Shown: positions 9,451-21,759 of the stretch, piece after piece | How the letters are laid out: each line of letters begins with the position of its first letter | Position numbering within the stretch: position 1 is the stretch's first letter | From: a virus | DNA length: 26,407 nucleotides | IMG/VR virus record: IMGVR_UViG_3300046095_000122 | Coordinates: 1-26,407 of that record | Direction: 5' to 3' (one strand) | Translations under genes and position numbers: made by a program | The notes under the pieces: generated by a model | The model's database searches: none | The model's input: only the letters and a program-made list of their open reading frames with translations | Told to the model about the DNA's origin: nothing

Positions 9451-9942
9451 ATGGAATTTTATATCAGATTGACAAATGAGTTTAACAATTACGCAATCAG
9501 TAATTTGTGTAATGTTAAAAATCTAACAACAAACCGTATTTTAAAGCCACAAATTGATCGATACGGATATGTTTATGTTTCATTGGCAAACAAAGGTTTT
9601 AATAAAAAAAAGAAGGTTCACAGATTAATGGCTGAAATTTTTGTTGAAAATCCTCAAAATAAAAAGGAGGTAAACCACAAAGATGGAAATCCAAAAAATA
9701 ATTTAGCTGAAAATCTAGAATGGGTTACACATTTTGAAAATCAAACACATAAAGTAAGGTATTGGAATTGTTCAAGTAAATATTTGGGTGTAACATTCAA
9801 TAAAAAAGAGAATAAATGGAAATCACAAATACAAGTGAATAAAAAGAAATATTCATTAGGTGCATACAATACTGAAATTGAAGCCTATCAGGCAAGGGTT
9901 AATTTTGAAAAGGAACACAACATTGCAAATAAATATTTGTAG
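9451..9942 (+). CDS. HNH homing endonuclease with C-terminal AP2-like DNA-binding domain
   Basis: The 163-residue protein opens with a NUMOD4-like segment (residues 1-45). The HNH core follows: VHRLMAEIFVENP, then KEVNHKDGNPKNN and ENLEWVTHFENQTH, with His57, Asn75-His76 and Asn84/Asn88 as likely catalytic positions. Residues 108-160 have the look of an AP2 domain (KYLGVTFNKKENKWKSQI, then YSLGAYNTEIEAYQA). Free-standing proteins of this layout are typical selfish endonucleases in phages: they nick DNA at a fixed site, and repair copies the gene into new genomes. The gene sits at a module boundary between a candidate structured RNA and a terminator. The ATG at 9451 follows directly after the T-run, so read-through or a start within the T-run must supply its mRNA. 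Confidence 0.9.
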   Translation: MEFYIRLTNEFNNYAISNLCNVKNLTTNRILKPQIDRYGYVYVSLANKGFNKKKKVHRLMAEIFVENPQNKKEVNHKDGNPKNNLAENLEWVTHFENQTHKVRYWNCSSKYLGVTFNKKENKWKSQIQVNKKKYSLGAYNTEIEAYQARVNFEKEHNIANKYL

Positions 9943-18169: not shown

Positions 18170-19342
18170 ATGGCCAAAAATGATAAACAAATGATAGAGG
18201 AAGTCAATATCAAATTAGTAATTCCGCATCCAAACAATCCGAGATTGATTAAGGATGACAAATTCAAAAAATTAGTAAAGTCAATTAAGGAATTTCCTGA
18301 AATGCTTAATTTACGGCCAATTGTCGTTGATGATAATTATGTTGTATTAGGTGGCAATATGCGTTTACGTGCCTGTATTGAAGCAGGATTGAAACGTGTG
18401 CCAATCATTAAAGCATCAGCATTGACAGCCGAACAGCAGAAACGTTTTATTATTACCGACAACGTAGGGTTTGGTGAATGGGATTGGGATATGTTGGCAA
18501 ATGAATGGGATCAGGAGGAATTGATTGATTGGGGTTTAGATTTGCCTGTTATGGACATTGTTGATGCAGGGACAATAGATGAGGATGATTATGAAGTACC
18601 TGATGGCGGATTAAAAACAGATATTGTTTTGGGTGATTTATTTGAGATAGGGCCACACAGATTATTATGTGGAAGTTCGACAGATTTATTATCAGTTGAA
18701 AAATTATTAAATGGAAACAAAATTGATTTAGTTTTTACTGATCCACCCTATGGAATTAAAGTGGTTGGGTCAAATGGAAAAGTTGGAGGGGAATATTTAG
18801 CTAAAAATGGAATTTATGCTCCTATAATTGGCGATGATACAACAGATACTGCAAGAGAATTTTATCACACTTGTATAGCATTAGGAATAGAAAATTTTAT
18901 TATTTGGGGAGGAAATTATTTTACTGATTTTCTTAATCCATCACCTTGTTGGTTAATATGGGATAAAAGAGGAGAAATGAATAGTAATAATTTTGCAGAC
19001 GGTGAAATGGCTTGGACTTCTTTTTCTAGCCCTGTAAGAATAAAAAAACAAATTTGGTGTGGAATGATTAAAGAAGGAGAAAGTGGTAAAAGAGTTCATC
19101 CTACGCAAAAGCCAATTCAATTATGTGCTGATTTTATAAAAGATTATTTAAAAGGAGATATTGTATATGATGGATTTTTAGGTTCAGGATCAACAATGGT
19201 TGCTTCACATCAAATAAAAAAAATATGTTATGGTGTTGAAATGAGCCCTGATTATTGTCAGGTTATAATTGACCGAATGAAAAAACTTGATTCGAGTTTA
19301 GTGATTAAGAAAAATGGCGAGATTTACGAATCAAAAAAATAG
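18170..19342 (+). CDS. ParB-like domain fused to N4/N6 DNA methyltransferase
   Basis: From the ATG at 18170 the protein has 390 residues; a TTG start at 18140 is possible but less likely. Residues 8-100 are a ParB/Srx-type domain (IPHPNNPRLI, then VVLGGNMRLRACIEAG). The methyltransferase follows, with TDPPYG (Asp191) before FLGSGST (about 336-341), the order of beta-class amino-methyltransferases. It transfers methyl groups from S-adenosylmethionine to adenine or cytosine amino groups in DNA, probably shielding phage DNA from host restriction; the target is unknown. The stretch 18735-19265 is more AT-rich and uses AGA and GGA more than its flanks, suggesting a swapped catalytic domain. It sits 3 bases upstream of the small terminase. 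Confidence 0.9.
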   Translation: MAKNDKQMIEEVNIKLVIPHPNNPRLIKDDKFKKLVKSIKEFPEMLNLRPIVVDDNYVVLGGNMRLRACIEAGLKRVPIIKASALTAEQQKRFIITDNVGFGEWDWDMLANEWDQEELIDWGLDLPVMDIVDAGTIDEDDYEVPDGGLKTDIVLGDLFEIGPHRLLCGSSTDLLSVEKLLNGNKIDLVFTDPPYGIKVVGSNGKVGGEYLAKNGIYAPIIGDDTTDTAREFYHTCIALGIENFIIWGGNYFTDFLNPSPCWLIWDKRGEMNSNNFADGEMAWTSFSSPVRIKKQIWCGMIKEGESGKRVHPTQKPIQLCADFIKDYLKGDIVYDGFLGSGSTMVASHQIKKICYGVEMSPDYCQVIIDRMKKLDSSLVIKKNGEIYESKK

Positions 19343-19345
19343 AAT

Positions 19346-19711
19346 ATGGCGGTGAATGCACGTGTGACAAAGTTGAATAAAAAACGGATGTTGGATGCCC
19401 TTGAAAAATCATTGGGTATTGTGACAACAGCATCGAAAGCAACAGATATCCCTAGATCAGTGCATTATGAGTGGATGCAAAAGGATCCGGAATATCGTGA
19501 AGCGGTGGAGGCATTGGCCGACATGACATTGGATTTTGCGGAATCGCAGTTGCACAGGCAAATTAAAGATGGCAACACAACGGCCACAATATTTTATTTA
19601 AAGACCAAAGGCAAAAAACGTGGATACGTAGAACGCACGGAGGTTGTACATGAAACCGGCATTGAATCTGCCATAATAGAATGGACACCGGCAACAATCG
19701 AAAACGAATAG
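19346..19711 (+). CDS. terS: Terminase small subunit
   Basis: This 121-residue protein directly precedes the large terminase and overlaps its start by 31 bases. The N-terminal part contains a helix-turn-helix suited to DNA binding (KSLGIVTTASKATDIPRSVHYEWMQKDP), then a helical oligomerisation segment (EYREAVEALADMTLDFAESQL) and KTKGKKRGYVERTEV, a stretch typical of phage small terminases. It would recognise the packaging site and feed DNA to the large subunit. The length is normal for the family. Confidence 0.88.
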   Translation: MAVNARVTKLNKKRMLDALEKSLGIVTTASKATDIPRSVHYEWMQKDPEYREAVEALADMTLDFAESQLHRQIKDGNTTATIFYLKTKGKKRGYVERTEVVHETGIESAIIEWTPATIENE

Positions 19712-21759
19712 GGCAGAAATGCAACATTCAGTTTTATCAGACATTAAACAGCAATAAGCGGATTAAAGTTCATCAGGGCGGCACACGTTGCCTGAAAGGT
19801 GATACTTTGATCAATACTATTGATGGATACATCCCCATTTCTGAAATAGAAATTGGGCAAATGGTGTATTGCAAAAGCGATGATGACAAAATCGTTGAAC
19901 GTAAAATCATAAATAAGTTTATATACACGGGTGAACATATTGGTAATAAATGTATTACATTTGTATTAATTAATAATCAAAAAATAACGTGTACATATGA
20001 TCACAAATGGTTTACAAAAAACGGATATGTTAAAGCAATTGACATTGCCAAACGAATTGTGGAAAGAAATTCCGCAAACAAACGGCCGTTATCAGGCAAG
20101 CAGTTTAGGCCGAATCGCCACAATGAATTACAAAAATTCACATCAGATTCGAATTATGAAGCCGGCAAAAGATGCAAACGGATATTATCGAACTATGATT
20201 ATAATCAATGGAAAATTAAGTACAATAAAAGTGCACAGAATAGTGGCACAGGCATTTATTCAAAATCCATTGAACAAATTAGAAGTCAATCACATAAACA
20301 ACAACAGGGACGACAATCGCATTTCAAATTTGGAATGGGTTACAAGAAGGGAAAATTTGGATCATATGTTGAATCAGAATCGACAATCATTAAACAACGG
20401 ATCGAAAAATGGAATGGCCAAATTAACAGAAATTCAGGTATTAGCAATCCGTCAAGAATACAAGCCATATGTAGTTCAGAAACAAGAATTAGCAAAAAAA
20501 TACAACGTGTCAATTTCCCTAATAAAAGATATTGTGGGGAATCGAACGTGGAGGCATTTGCTTTAAATTCAAATTTGATAAAAGATGTAATTTTCAAAAA
20601 TATACATGAAAATGTATATGATATTGAGGTTGATGAGTTTCACAATTTTTTAGCCACAACAGACAATATTATTTCACATAATTCGGGAAAAACGTATGCC
20701 CTGTGCCAATATCTGATCTACAAAATGACATCATCCAAAACACCATTGGTGATTTCAATTGTCCGCAAAACATTGCCGGCATTGAAAGGATCAGTTCAAC
20801 GTGATTTCCTAGAAATATTAGATAATTTGGGCATCCTGTATGTGGGCCAACATAACAAATCGGAAAACACGTACACATTTGGCGGTCACGTTGTGGAATT
20901 TTTATCAGTTGATGAGCCACAAAAAATCAGGGGCCGGAAACGGAACATCTGCTATTGCAACGAGGTAAACGAATTAGATCACGAAGATTTCAGGCAATTG
21001 TTAATGCGTACAACGGATGAGATGATTTGCGATTTTAATCCATCCGATCCGGTGCATTGGATTTATGATGAAGTCATCACGCGTGACGATTGTGACAGTT
21101 GGATATCAACCTACAAAGACAATAAATTTTTACCTGCGGAGTTGGTAAACGAAATTGAGCGATTGCGTGAAAAAGATCCGGATTATTGGCGCGTGTACGG
21201 AGAGGGGAAACGTGCGGTGTTTAGTGATCGCCAAATATTCCCTAATTGGCAATTCATTCCAAAGGCGGATTTCCCTGAATTTGATGATGTGTTTTACGGC
21301 CTTGACTTTGGATTCAGTCACGATCCAACGGCCATTGTGCAATTGGCAAAAGTTGGCGATAAATTGTTCATTCATGAAATATGTTATAGAAAAGGAATGA
21401 CAAACCGGGATATTGCCGATTTTTTAAAAGAAAAAAAAATCAATGAACACATAATTTATTGCGAATCAGCTGAACCAAAATCCATTGAGGAATTAAGGCA
21501 AATGGATATTTTAGCAATTCCTGCGATTAAAGGCGAGGGATCTATCAAGGCCGGAATTAGCCTATTAAAAGAACATGAGGTGATCTGTTCAATTGAATCC
21601 CCTAATTTATTCAATGAATTTCAGTTTTATTTTTGGGAGCAATTAAAGGACGGAACAATAGTAAACAAGCCGATTGACAAACACAATCACCTGATGGATG
21701 CAATTCGGTATGGGGTATATACCAAATACAAAAACCGTTCTGATTTTTTTGTGGTTTAA
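19681..21759 (+). CDS. terL: Terminase large subunit interrupted by an intein
   Basis: The ORF encodes 692 residues: 36 of N-extein, a 298-residue intein, and 358 of C-extein, so the spliced terminase has 394 residues, normal for the family. Splicing restores the Walker A motif GGTR-SGKT. The Walker B region is around NICYCNEVNE (near 20946-20975). The RNase H-like nuclease domain begins at GLDFGFSHDPTA (near 21301) with later acidic positions in YCESAEPKS and near the end (HNHLMDAIRYG). The protein is the packaging motor: ATPase and DNA-cutting nuclease at the portal. Without splicing the ATPase should be dead, so packaging depends on the intein. The start at 19681 lies within the small-subunit gene. 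Confidence 0.93.
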   Translation: MDTGNNRKRIGQKCNIQFYQTLNSNKRIKVHQGGTRCLKGDTLINTIDGYIPISEIEIGQMVYCKSDDDKIVERKIINKFIYTGEHIGNKCITFVLINNQKITCTYDHKWFTKNGYVKAIDIAKRIVERNSANKRPLSGKQFRPNRHNELQKFTSDSNYEAGKRCKRILSNYDYNQWKIKYNKSAQNSGTGIYSKSIEQIRSQSHKQQQGRQSHFKFGMGYKKGKFGSYVESESTIIKQRIEKWNGQINRNSGISNPSRIQAICSSETRISKKIQRVNFPNKRYCGESNVEAFALNSNLIKDVIFKNIHENVYDIEVDEFHNFLATTDNIISHNSGKTYALCQYLIYKMTSSKTPLVISIVRKTLPALKGSVQRDFLEILDNLGILYVGQHNKSENTYTFGGHVVEFLSVDEPQKIRGRKRNICYCNEVNELDHEDFRQLLMRTTDEMICDFNPSDPVHWIYDEVITRDDCDSWISTYKDNKFLPAELVNEIERLREKDPDYWRVYGEGKRAVFSDRQIFPNWQFIPKADFPEFDDVFYGLDFGFSHDPTAIVQLAKVGDKLFIHEICYRKGMTNRDIADFLKEKKINEHIIYCESAEPKSIEELRQMDILAIPAIKGEGSIKAGISLLKEHEVICSIESPNLFNEFQFYFWEQLKDGTIVNKPIDKHNHLMDAIRYGVYTKYKNRSDFFVV
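19789..20682 (+). mobile_element. Intein in the terminase Walker A loop
   Basis: All splicing motifs are in place: Cys1 followed by LKGDTLI (block A), the block B T-x-x-H (Thr69, His72 in TYDH), block F (NVYDIEVDEFHNFLA), the His297-Asn298 end and Ser as the first C-extein residue. Removing it joins GGTR to SGKT. The splicing parts cover roughly residues 1-80 and 262-298, about the size of a mini-intein. The 180 or so residues between them are Ser/Asn/Lys/Arg/Gln-rich and match nothing in this frame, because the DNA there encodes an HNH endonuclease in another frame. Insertion at a P-loop is a common intein choice: the site is highly conserved. Confidence 0.93.
19997..20566 (+). CDS. HNH homing endonuclease nested in the intein in a different frame
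   Basis: This 189-residue protein lies wholly within the intein, shifted +1 from the splicing frame. It has a NUMOD4-like domain (residues 20-65, ELWKEIPQTNGRYQASSLGRI), the HNH core (VHRIVAQAFIQNP, then LEVNHINNNRDDN and ISNLEWVTRRENLDH; His80, Asn98-His99, Asn107/111) and a C-terminal helix-turn-helix (LTEIQVLAIRQEY, ELAKKYNVSISLIKDIV) closing in GNRTWRHLL and its own stop, the normal end of free-standing enzymes. The start may be at 19997 or, just before the first domain, at 20027 behind an A-rich leader. It would cut intein-free terminase genes and spread the intein. Translation needs internal initiation or frameshifting. Confidence 0.9.
   Translation: MITNGLQKTDMLKQLTLPNELWKEIPQTNGRYQASSLGRIATMNYKNSHQIRIMKPAKDANGYYRTMIIINGKLSTIKVHRIVAQAFIQNPLNKLEVNHINNNRDDNRISNLEWVTRRENLDHMLNQNRQSLNNGSKNGMAKLTEIQVLAIRQEYKPYVVQKQELAKKYNVSISLIKDIVGNRTWRHLL

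Follow-up and report, generated by a model that had tools for sequence, protein, structure and literature searches.

The terminase large subunit (TerL) gene of the IMG/VR virus record IMGVR_UViG_3300046095_000122 (positions 1 to 26,407, the whole stretch of 26,407 nucleotides (nt) analysed here, hereafter the window) is interrupted at its Walker-A motif by an insert. We consider it very likely that this insert is a contiguous intein that probably splices in cis, and that a NUMOD4-HNH homing endonuclease gene is overprinted in its +1 frame. Comparison with related sequences confirms that the double coding is real and conserved and that it is no sequencing accident.

The terminase intein and its nested HNH gene

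The features of the locus are the following:

19681–21759, + strand: TerL frame of 692 amino acids (aa) interrupted by the insert; open reading frame (ORF) with Pfam matches to Terminase_3 and Terminase_3C
19681–19788, + strand: TerL N-extein, whose last residues are GGTR at Walker A (translation; intein-less relatives run straight into SGKT, gap 0)
19789–20682, + strand: intein of 298 aa, C1 to H297-N298, with Ser at +1, stop-free (translation, Pfam, predicted Hint fold)
19789–20073, + strand: Hint-N, residues 1–95, including block B (T-C-T-Y-D-H); predicted local distance difference test (pLDDT) mostly 83–92
19997–20566, + strand: nested HNH ORF, 189 aa, +1 relative to the intein frame (Pfam, predicted model, selection)
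19997 and 20027, + strand: first ATG of the HNH ORF and a further in-frame ATG, both candidate starts (sequence)
20054–20197, + strand: NUMOD4 domain, HNH residues 20–67 (Pfam)
20074–20544, + strand: intein-frame spacer opposite the HNH, predicted disordered, basic, stop-free (pLDDT 28–49)
20228–20356, + strand: HNH_3 domain, HNH residues 78–120 (Pfam)
20429–20536, + strand: carboxyl-terminal three-helix region resembling a helix-turn-helix (HTH), HNH residues 145–180 (AlphaFold2 model; no Pfam match)
20545–20682, + strand: Hint-C, residues 253–298, with the conserved YDIE..HN..NIISHN (pLDDT mostly 86–91)
20548–20550, + strand: GTG codon (Val) of the intein frame, at the place of the ATG that starts Hint-C in fractured relatives (locus comparison)
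20683–21759, + strand: TerL C-extein (SGKT...), the remaining ATPase and the nuclease (translation, Pfam, empty-site relatives)

The intein (894 nt, CLKGDT...NIISHN) splits the terminase Walker-A motif between GGTR and SGKT. About 70 related terminases of viral metagenomic origin are empty at exactly this position, with a gap of zero, and the intein boundaries are therefore certain. Its C1, the block-B His (H72 of TCTYDH), H297 and N298 are invariant in the 16 aligned inteins, and the residue that follows it is Ser. The first 36 codons of Hint-N, which lie outside the overlap with the HNH gene, have a plain dN/dS of 0.04–0.2 in most pairs of relatives. In a model of the intein-frame protein built with 16 homologues, residues 1–95 and 253–298 are mostly confident, and residues 96–252 are largely disordered (pLDDT 28–49). 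The best PDB matches of this model are the mini-inteins Ssp DnaB M86, gp41-1 and Npu DnaE (E about 1e-5 for the Ssp DnaB mini-intein and gp41-1).

The nested frame matches NUMOD4 (1e-10) and HNH_3 (2e-11) in Pfam, and its AlphaFold2 model has a mean pLDDT of 88. It resembles I-HmuI (PDB 1u3e) over nearly its whole length, both by profile (E 2.8e-24) and by predicted fold (E 5e-8). Note that the window codes for a second, free-standing NUMOD4-HNH-AP2 homing endonuclease (9451–9942), which shares 43% identity with the nested HNH along 83 aa.

The original prediction, made from the DNA letters, described a terminase frame open through the whole intein, a nested NUMOD4-HNH-HTH protein and a closed third frame. 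The first and the last hold: the frame of 19681–21759 is uninterrupted, and the +2 frame is closed by TGA 19998, TAA 20031 and TGA 20040, with 22 stops in total across the HNH. The NUMOD4 and HNH domains of the nested protein are found by Pfam, whereas its HTH is limited to three helices of the model. The spacer opposite the HNH is basic, as had been noted (32 K+R versus 10 D+E among 158 residues). The splicing motifs had been placed wholly outside the HNH segment, and this needs correction: the first ~25 codons of the HNH are shared with block B (TCTYDH, 19987–20004) and the next Hint helix, and its 3'-most codons overlap the beginning of Hint-C. Separate database searches of the two frames, which the prediction had proposed, lead to NUMOD4/HNH_3 and I-HmuI for the nested frame and to Terminase_3 together with a sub-threshold Intein_splicing match for the intein frame.

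Relatives, stop avoidance and selection on the two frames

An alignment of the HNH over 68 loci comprises three kinds of elements, namely dual-coded inteins, fractured inteins and free-standing HNH genes (family A). In total, the dual-coded kind is represented by 27 distinct inteins from many contigs, the one of the window included. In all of them the HNH is in the +1 frame and the intein frame has no stop opposite to it, over a nucleotide divergence of the HNH region that ranges from 1% to more than 30%. Inteins that are 97.7–98.3% identical occur without an indel in independent metagenomes. Compensating indels that would bring the HNH in frame, or relatives with a broken splicing frame, had been named as what would speak against double coding; both frames are open in all 27 inteins, which have no such indels in common. 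When the Hint-N motif alone is used as query, 28 loci are retrieved, each with an out-of-frame HNH and none with an HNH in frame. A free-standing HNH gene may have landed in a mini-intein, as the original prediction pictured; the composite is old and its phase is fixed in family A. A first tree has long branches, and we make no claim on how often the arrangement arose within this family.

The fractured inteins lie in TerL or P-loop helicase-like genes whose overlapping cistrons have a homologous HNH between the two halves (loci L159, L162–L164, L166, L172–L174 and L178–L188, with the exception of L184, which is dual-coded). In most of those examined, Hint-N ends ~30 nt past the start of the HNH gene; their Hint-C restarts at an ATG within the HNH 3' end. 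In L178, L173 and L162 the intein frame is interrupted and Hint-C is separately started, as in split inteins. L171, L172 and L181 have HNH genes with three in-frame stops within fractured inteins, which suggests endonucleases decaying in the homing cycle. The free-standing close homologues are found at L142–L158, L165 and L169 (L144 and L155 being dual-coded), and at least in L165 and L169 the HNH gene directly precedes a TerL gene that is uninterrupted. Phage isolates yielded no relative of the window intein, and the HNH homologues found there are all below 60% identity. Of two queries against genome contigs, one gave no match and the other only three weak relatives, among them an apparently fractured version in a Bacteroidetes metagenome-assembled genome (L293). 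No HNH-less mini-intein turned up among the family A relatives.

The open intein frame is not what the HNH coding sequence would give by chance, as had been anticipated from its length. The HNH protein was held fixed while its codons were replaced at random by synonymous ones and the stops in the intein frame were counted. With its own codon usage, the window gene gives a mean of 13.0 stops and a minimum of 4 in 2000 runs, and with the codon usage of the free-standing and fractured homologues a mean of 20.4. The dual loci give 7–16 and 17–25 stops with their own and with pooled usage, respectively, and zero is essentially never reached. The longest accidental open run elsewhere in the window, among 11,092 shifted-frame codons of other genes, is 129 codons, versus 189 here. 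Stop counts in the intein frame of the first 52 distinct HNH sequences fall into two groups, namely 0 in each of the 19 dual ones and 12–28 in each of the 33 free-standing or fractured ones, with none in between. A further difference concerns the codon at the Hint-C entry, which is ATG in 20/20 fractured rows and in 1/27 dual ones, the other 26 having TTG, CTG or GTG. With ATG nearly absent, no start seems to be needed there in dual inteins, as expected if they are translated through.

Substitutions in both frames of the relatives, which the original prediction had put forward as a way to check it, were counted on divergent pairs by an OLGenie-like method, using only NN/SN and NN/NS (N, nonsynonymous, and S, synonymous, in the two frames). 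The core of the overlap has a w of 0.11 (0.02–0.17) for the HNH and of 1.20 (0.94–1.56) for the intein frame, values that are rough, since several pairs have a saturated or sparse dSS and dNS. Where the HNH overlaps Hint-N (first 25 HNH codons), both frames are constrained (0.37 and 0.31). The substitution pattern indicates purifying selection on the HNH frame, and hence a functional HNH, as well as neutral evolution of the intein-frame peptide opposite to it, which is constrained only against stops.

Alternative readings and a model for expression

Several points weigh against a contiguous, double-coded intein. The long frame matches Terminase_3 in Pfam, but its Intein_splicing match is below the cut-off (28.4 versus 35.8 bits, E 1.7e-6), which is passed by relatives (43.3 in L128, 39.7 in L160). 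No Shine-Dalgarno sequence is evident for the nested HNH start. Splicing, internal initiation, DNA cutting, homing and dual expression are deduced from sequence and models. Finally, the dual class is defined by zero stops in the intein frame, and its comparison with the other classes may be circular. Circularity is countered by the lack of intermediate stop counts, by the presence of Hint-N and Hint-C on the flanks of the dual cases (one end is missing in three partial contigs) and by the ATG difference at the Hint-C entry, which is independent of the definition.

The HNH occupies the usual place of in-frame intein endonuclease domains, and it could have been displaced from the frame of a canonical intein by two compensating indels, be they sequencing errors or recent mutations of a decaying element. 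Such an origin is extremely improbable: an accidental second frame would hold ~13–20 stops, the near-identical inteins from independent metagenomes carry no indel, the 27 distinct inteins share one phase, and an in-frame HNH is absent from the loci retrieved with the Hint-N motif. The close homologues that are fractured around the same HNH, together with the GTG at the matching place of the window, raise the alternative of a functionally split intein, made as separate N- and C-parts with Hint-C starting at GTG 20548 and splicing in trans. Under this arrangement the avoidance of stops over ~155 codons would be left without a reason, and the TTG, CTG or GTG found at the Hint-C entry of dual inteins contrasts with the ATG of the fractured ones; we regard it as very unlikely.

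The mode of HNH synthesis could also differ from internal initiation, with a programmed frameshift producing a fusion of the TerL N-part, Hint-N and HNH. In the window, no more than 9 nt of open HNH frame precede its first ATG, so that a nearby +1 shift would suffice. However, an ATG is present in the HNH start region of 26/27 dual inteins (in L161 there are just GTG and TTG), the single A_AAA_AAC-type slippery site that visual inspection of the window revealed (near 20013–20019) would shift ribosomes by -1 into the closed frame, and the HNHs of a second intein family (family B, see below) are in the other phase, which a single common shift mechanism cannot serve. A frameshift fusion is accordingly judged unlikely. 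An RNA-level element such as a group I intron with an ORF, in which the open terminase frame would be incidental, comes to mind since NUMOD4-HNH enzymes like I-HmuI are typically intron-encoded. The Rfam search of 19300–21000 down to E 5 found no intron, the intein splicing residues are conserved in all the aligned sequences and the predicted Hint fold resembles mini-inteins; a group I intron was thus rejected, and we assign next to no probability to an RNA-level explanation.

For the contiguous intein with an overprinted endonuclease gene, the following model is proposed, in which one mRNA would support two translations. Ribosomes in the terminase frame would read straight through the intein to yield a precursor, whose Hint-N and Hint-C would fold together around a floppy spacer of ~157 residues, a mere out-of-frame reading of the HNH gene. 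The intein would then excise itself in cis and join the active terminase. Other initiations, at ATG 19997 within block B or at ATG 20027, would yield the free NUMOD4-HNH enzyme of 189 or 179 aa. This enzyme would cut intein-less terminase genes and the intein would spread by their repair, the spacer being constrained only to be free of stop codons.

Other families and relation to known systems

Two loci carry second terminase inteins (L129, 4686–5495; L176, 4965–5945) that are dual-coded with an unrelated HNH (HNH_3, EWHKSxEG, Cys-rich tail). A search with this Cys-rich-tail HNH (family B) gave 80 loci, 54 of which have an open shifted frame. After removal of duplicates and addition of annotated phages, 43 distinct dual cases are found versus 22 with 3–15 stops. 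The family, very common among viral contigs, is independent of family A, and its HNHs are in the opposite phase to the window HNH. Among ten of their ORFs checked in Pfam, nearly all have intein domains and most have terminase domains. Family B is present in Tetrasphaera phage TJE1, Acinetobacter phage Highwayman and Rhodobacteraceae phage MD07, where the genes are annotated only as terminases. Selection in this family was assessed on the one usable pair. The helicase intein of Vibrio phage 1.088.O (L377, 3254–4042; 356 aa) features an open +1 frame of 263 codons coding a DUF559-type (Vsr-like) nuclease. The Hint search also matched about two dozen records of related Vibrio phages. The terminase of Vibrio phage 1.238.A (L381) is apparently fractured, with an N-part carrying Hint-N, an HNH homologue whose two other frames are closed and a separate "hedgehog/hint domain protein". 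Neither the terminase insert of Cantare, which has Hint-like ends and in which no nested nuclease was identified, nor the Ruminococcus locus L382, a Hint domain without a nested nuclease, is counted as a dual case. The sequences indicate that the out-of-frame endonuclease architecture arose more than once in phages.

In textbook inteins, the homing endonuclease is an in-frame domain. The window intein shares with canonical large inteins (PI-SceI type, HNH inteins) a Hint interrupted at the usual endonuclease place, an empty site in relatives and the distribution of a mobile element, but its endonuclease is a separate, unfused protein in another frame (+1 in 27/27). Dassa et al. reportedly described in 2009 fractured genes and split inteins whose halves are separated by a free-standing endonuclease gene. 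In such inteins, too, Hint-N and Hint-C enclose an endonuclease gene, which can be a direct homologue of the window HNH; they differ in an intein frame with 12–28 stops and in a Hint-C with its own ATG, where the window intein is continuous, with 0 stops and a GTG. I-HmuI, the match of the nested HNH in profile and predicted structure, is encoded by a group I intron, whereas the window HNH is nested in an intein.

The closest published case is the ShiLan element, an insertion in a phage methylase that is open in the host frame, codes for a complete HNH in another frame and has a patchy distribution suggesting homing (PMC11855218). The original prediction, which knew of no well-described case, needs to be qualified accordingly: ShiLan has the insertion within a phage gene, the open host frame and the out-of-frame HNH, but it lacks intein motifs and a splicing domain and presumably remains part of the methylase (PMC11855218). 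The window intein is distinguished by the conserved Hint-N and Hint-C flanking the HNH, by its terminase host and by the selection measured on both frames. In the library searched, no paper on an out-of-frame endonuclease inside a splicing intein was found; the search did not cover a 2025 preprint of the ShiLan group on "non-canonical" actinobacteriophage inteins (10.1101/2025.01.02.630785), to which PMC11855218 refers for overlapping frames and which may overlap with the present findings.

As an overlapping gene the HNH is an extreme case, for which nature supplies a clean control in the free-standing and split homologues that carry 12–28 stops in the same frame. Selection keeps the HNH protein while the terminase frame tolerates any spacer without a stop, so that two activities are apparently provided as separate proteins by one DNA. 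Both an intein and a nuclease gene can go unnoticed under an annotation as terminase, such as that of the sequenced phage TJE1. Overprinted endonuclease genes are likely a general, recurrently evolved architecture of phage inteins, with at least three unrelated endonuclease families in two phases, which would decouple the homing enzyme from the splicing domain. This architecture would be an evolutionary neighbour of fractured inteins, suggesting how contiguous, fractured and split inteins may pass into one another, and may be a route to split or endonuclease-bearing inteins.
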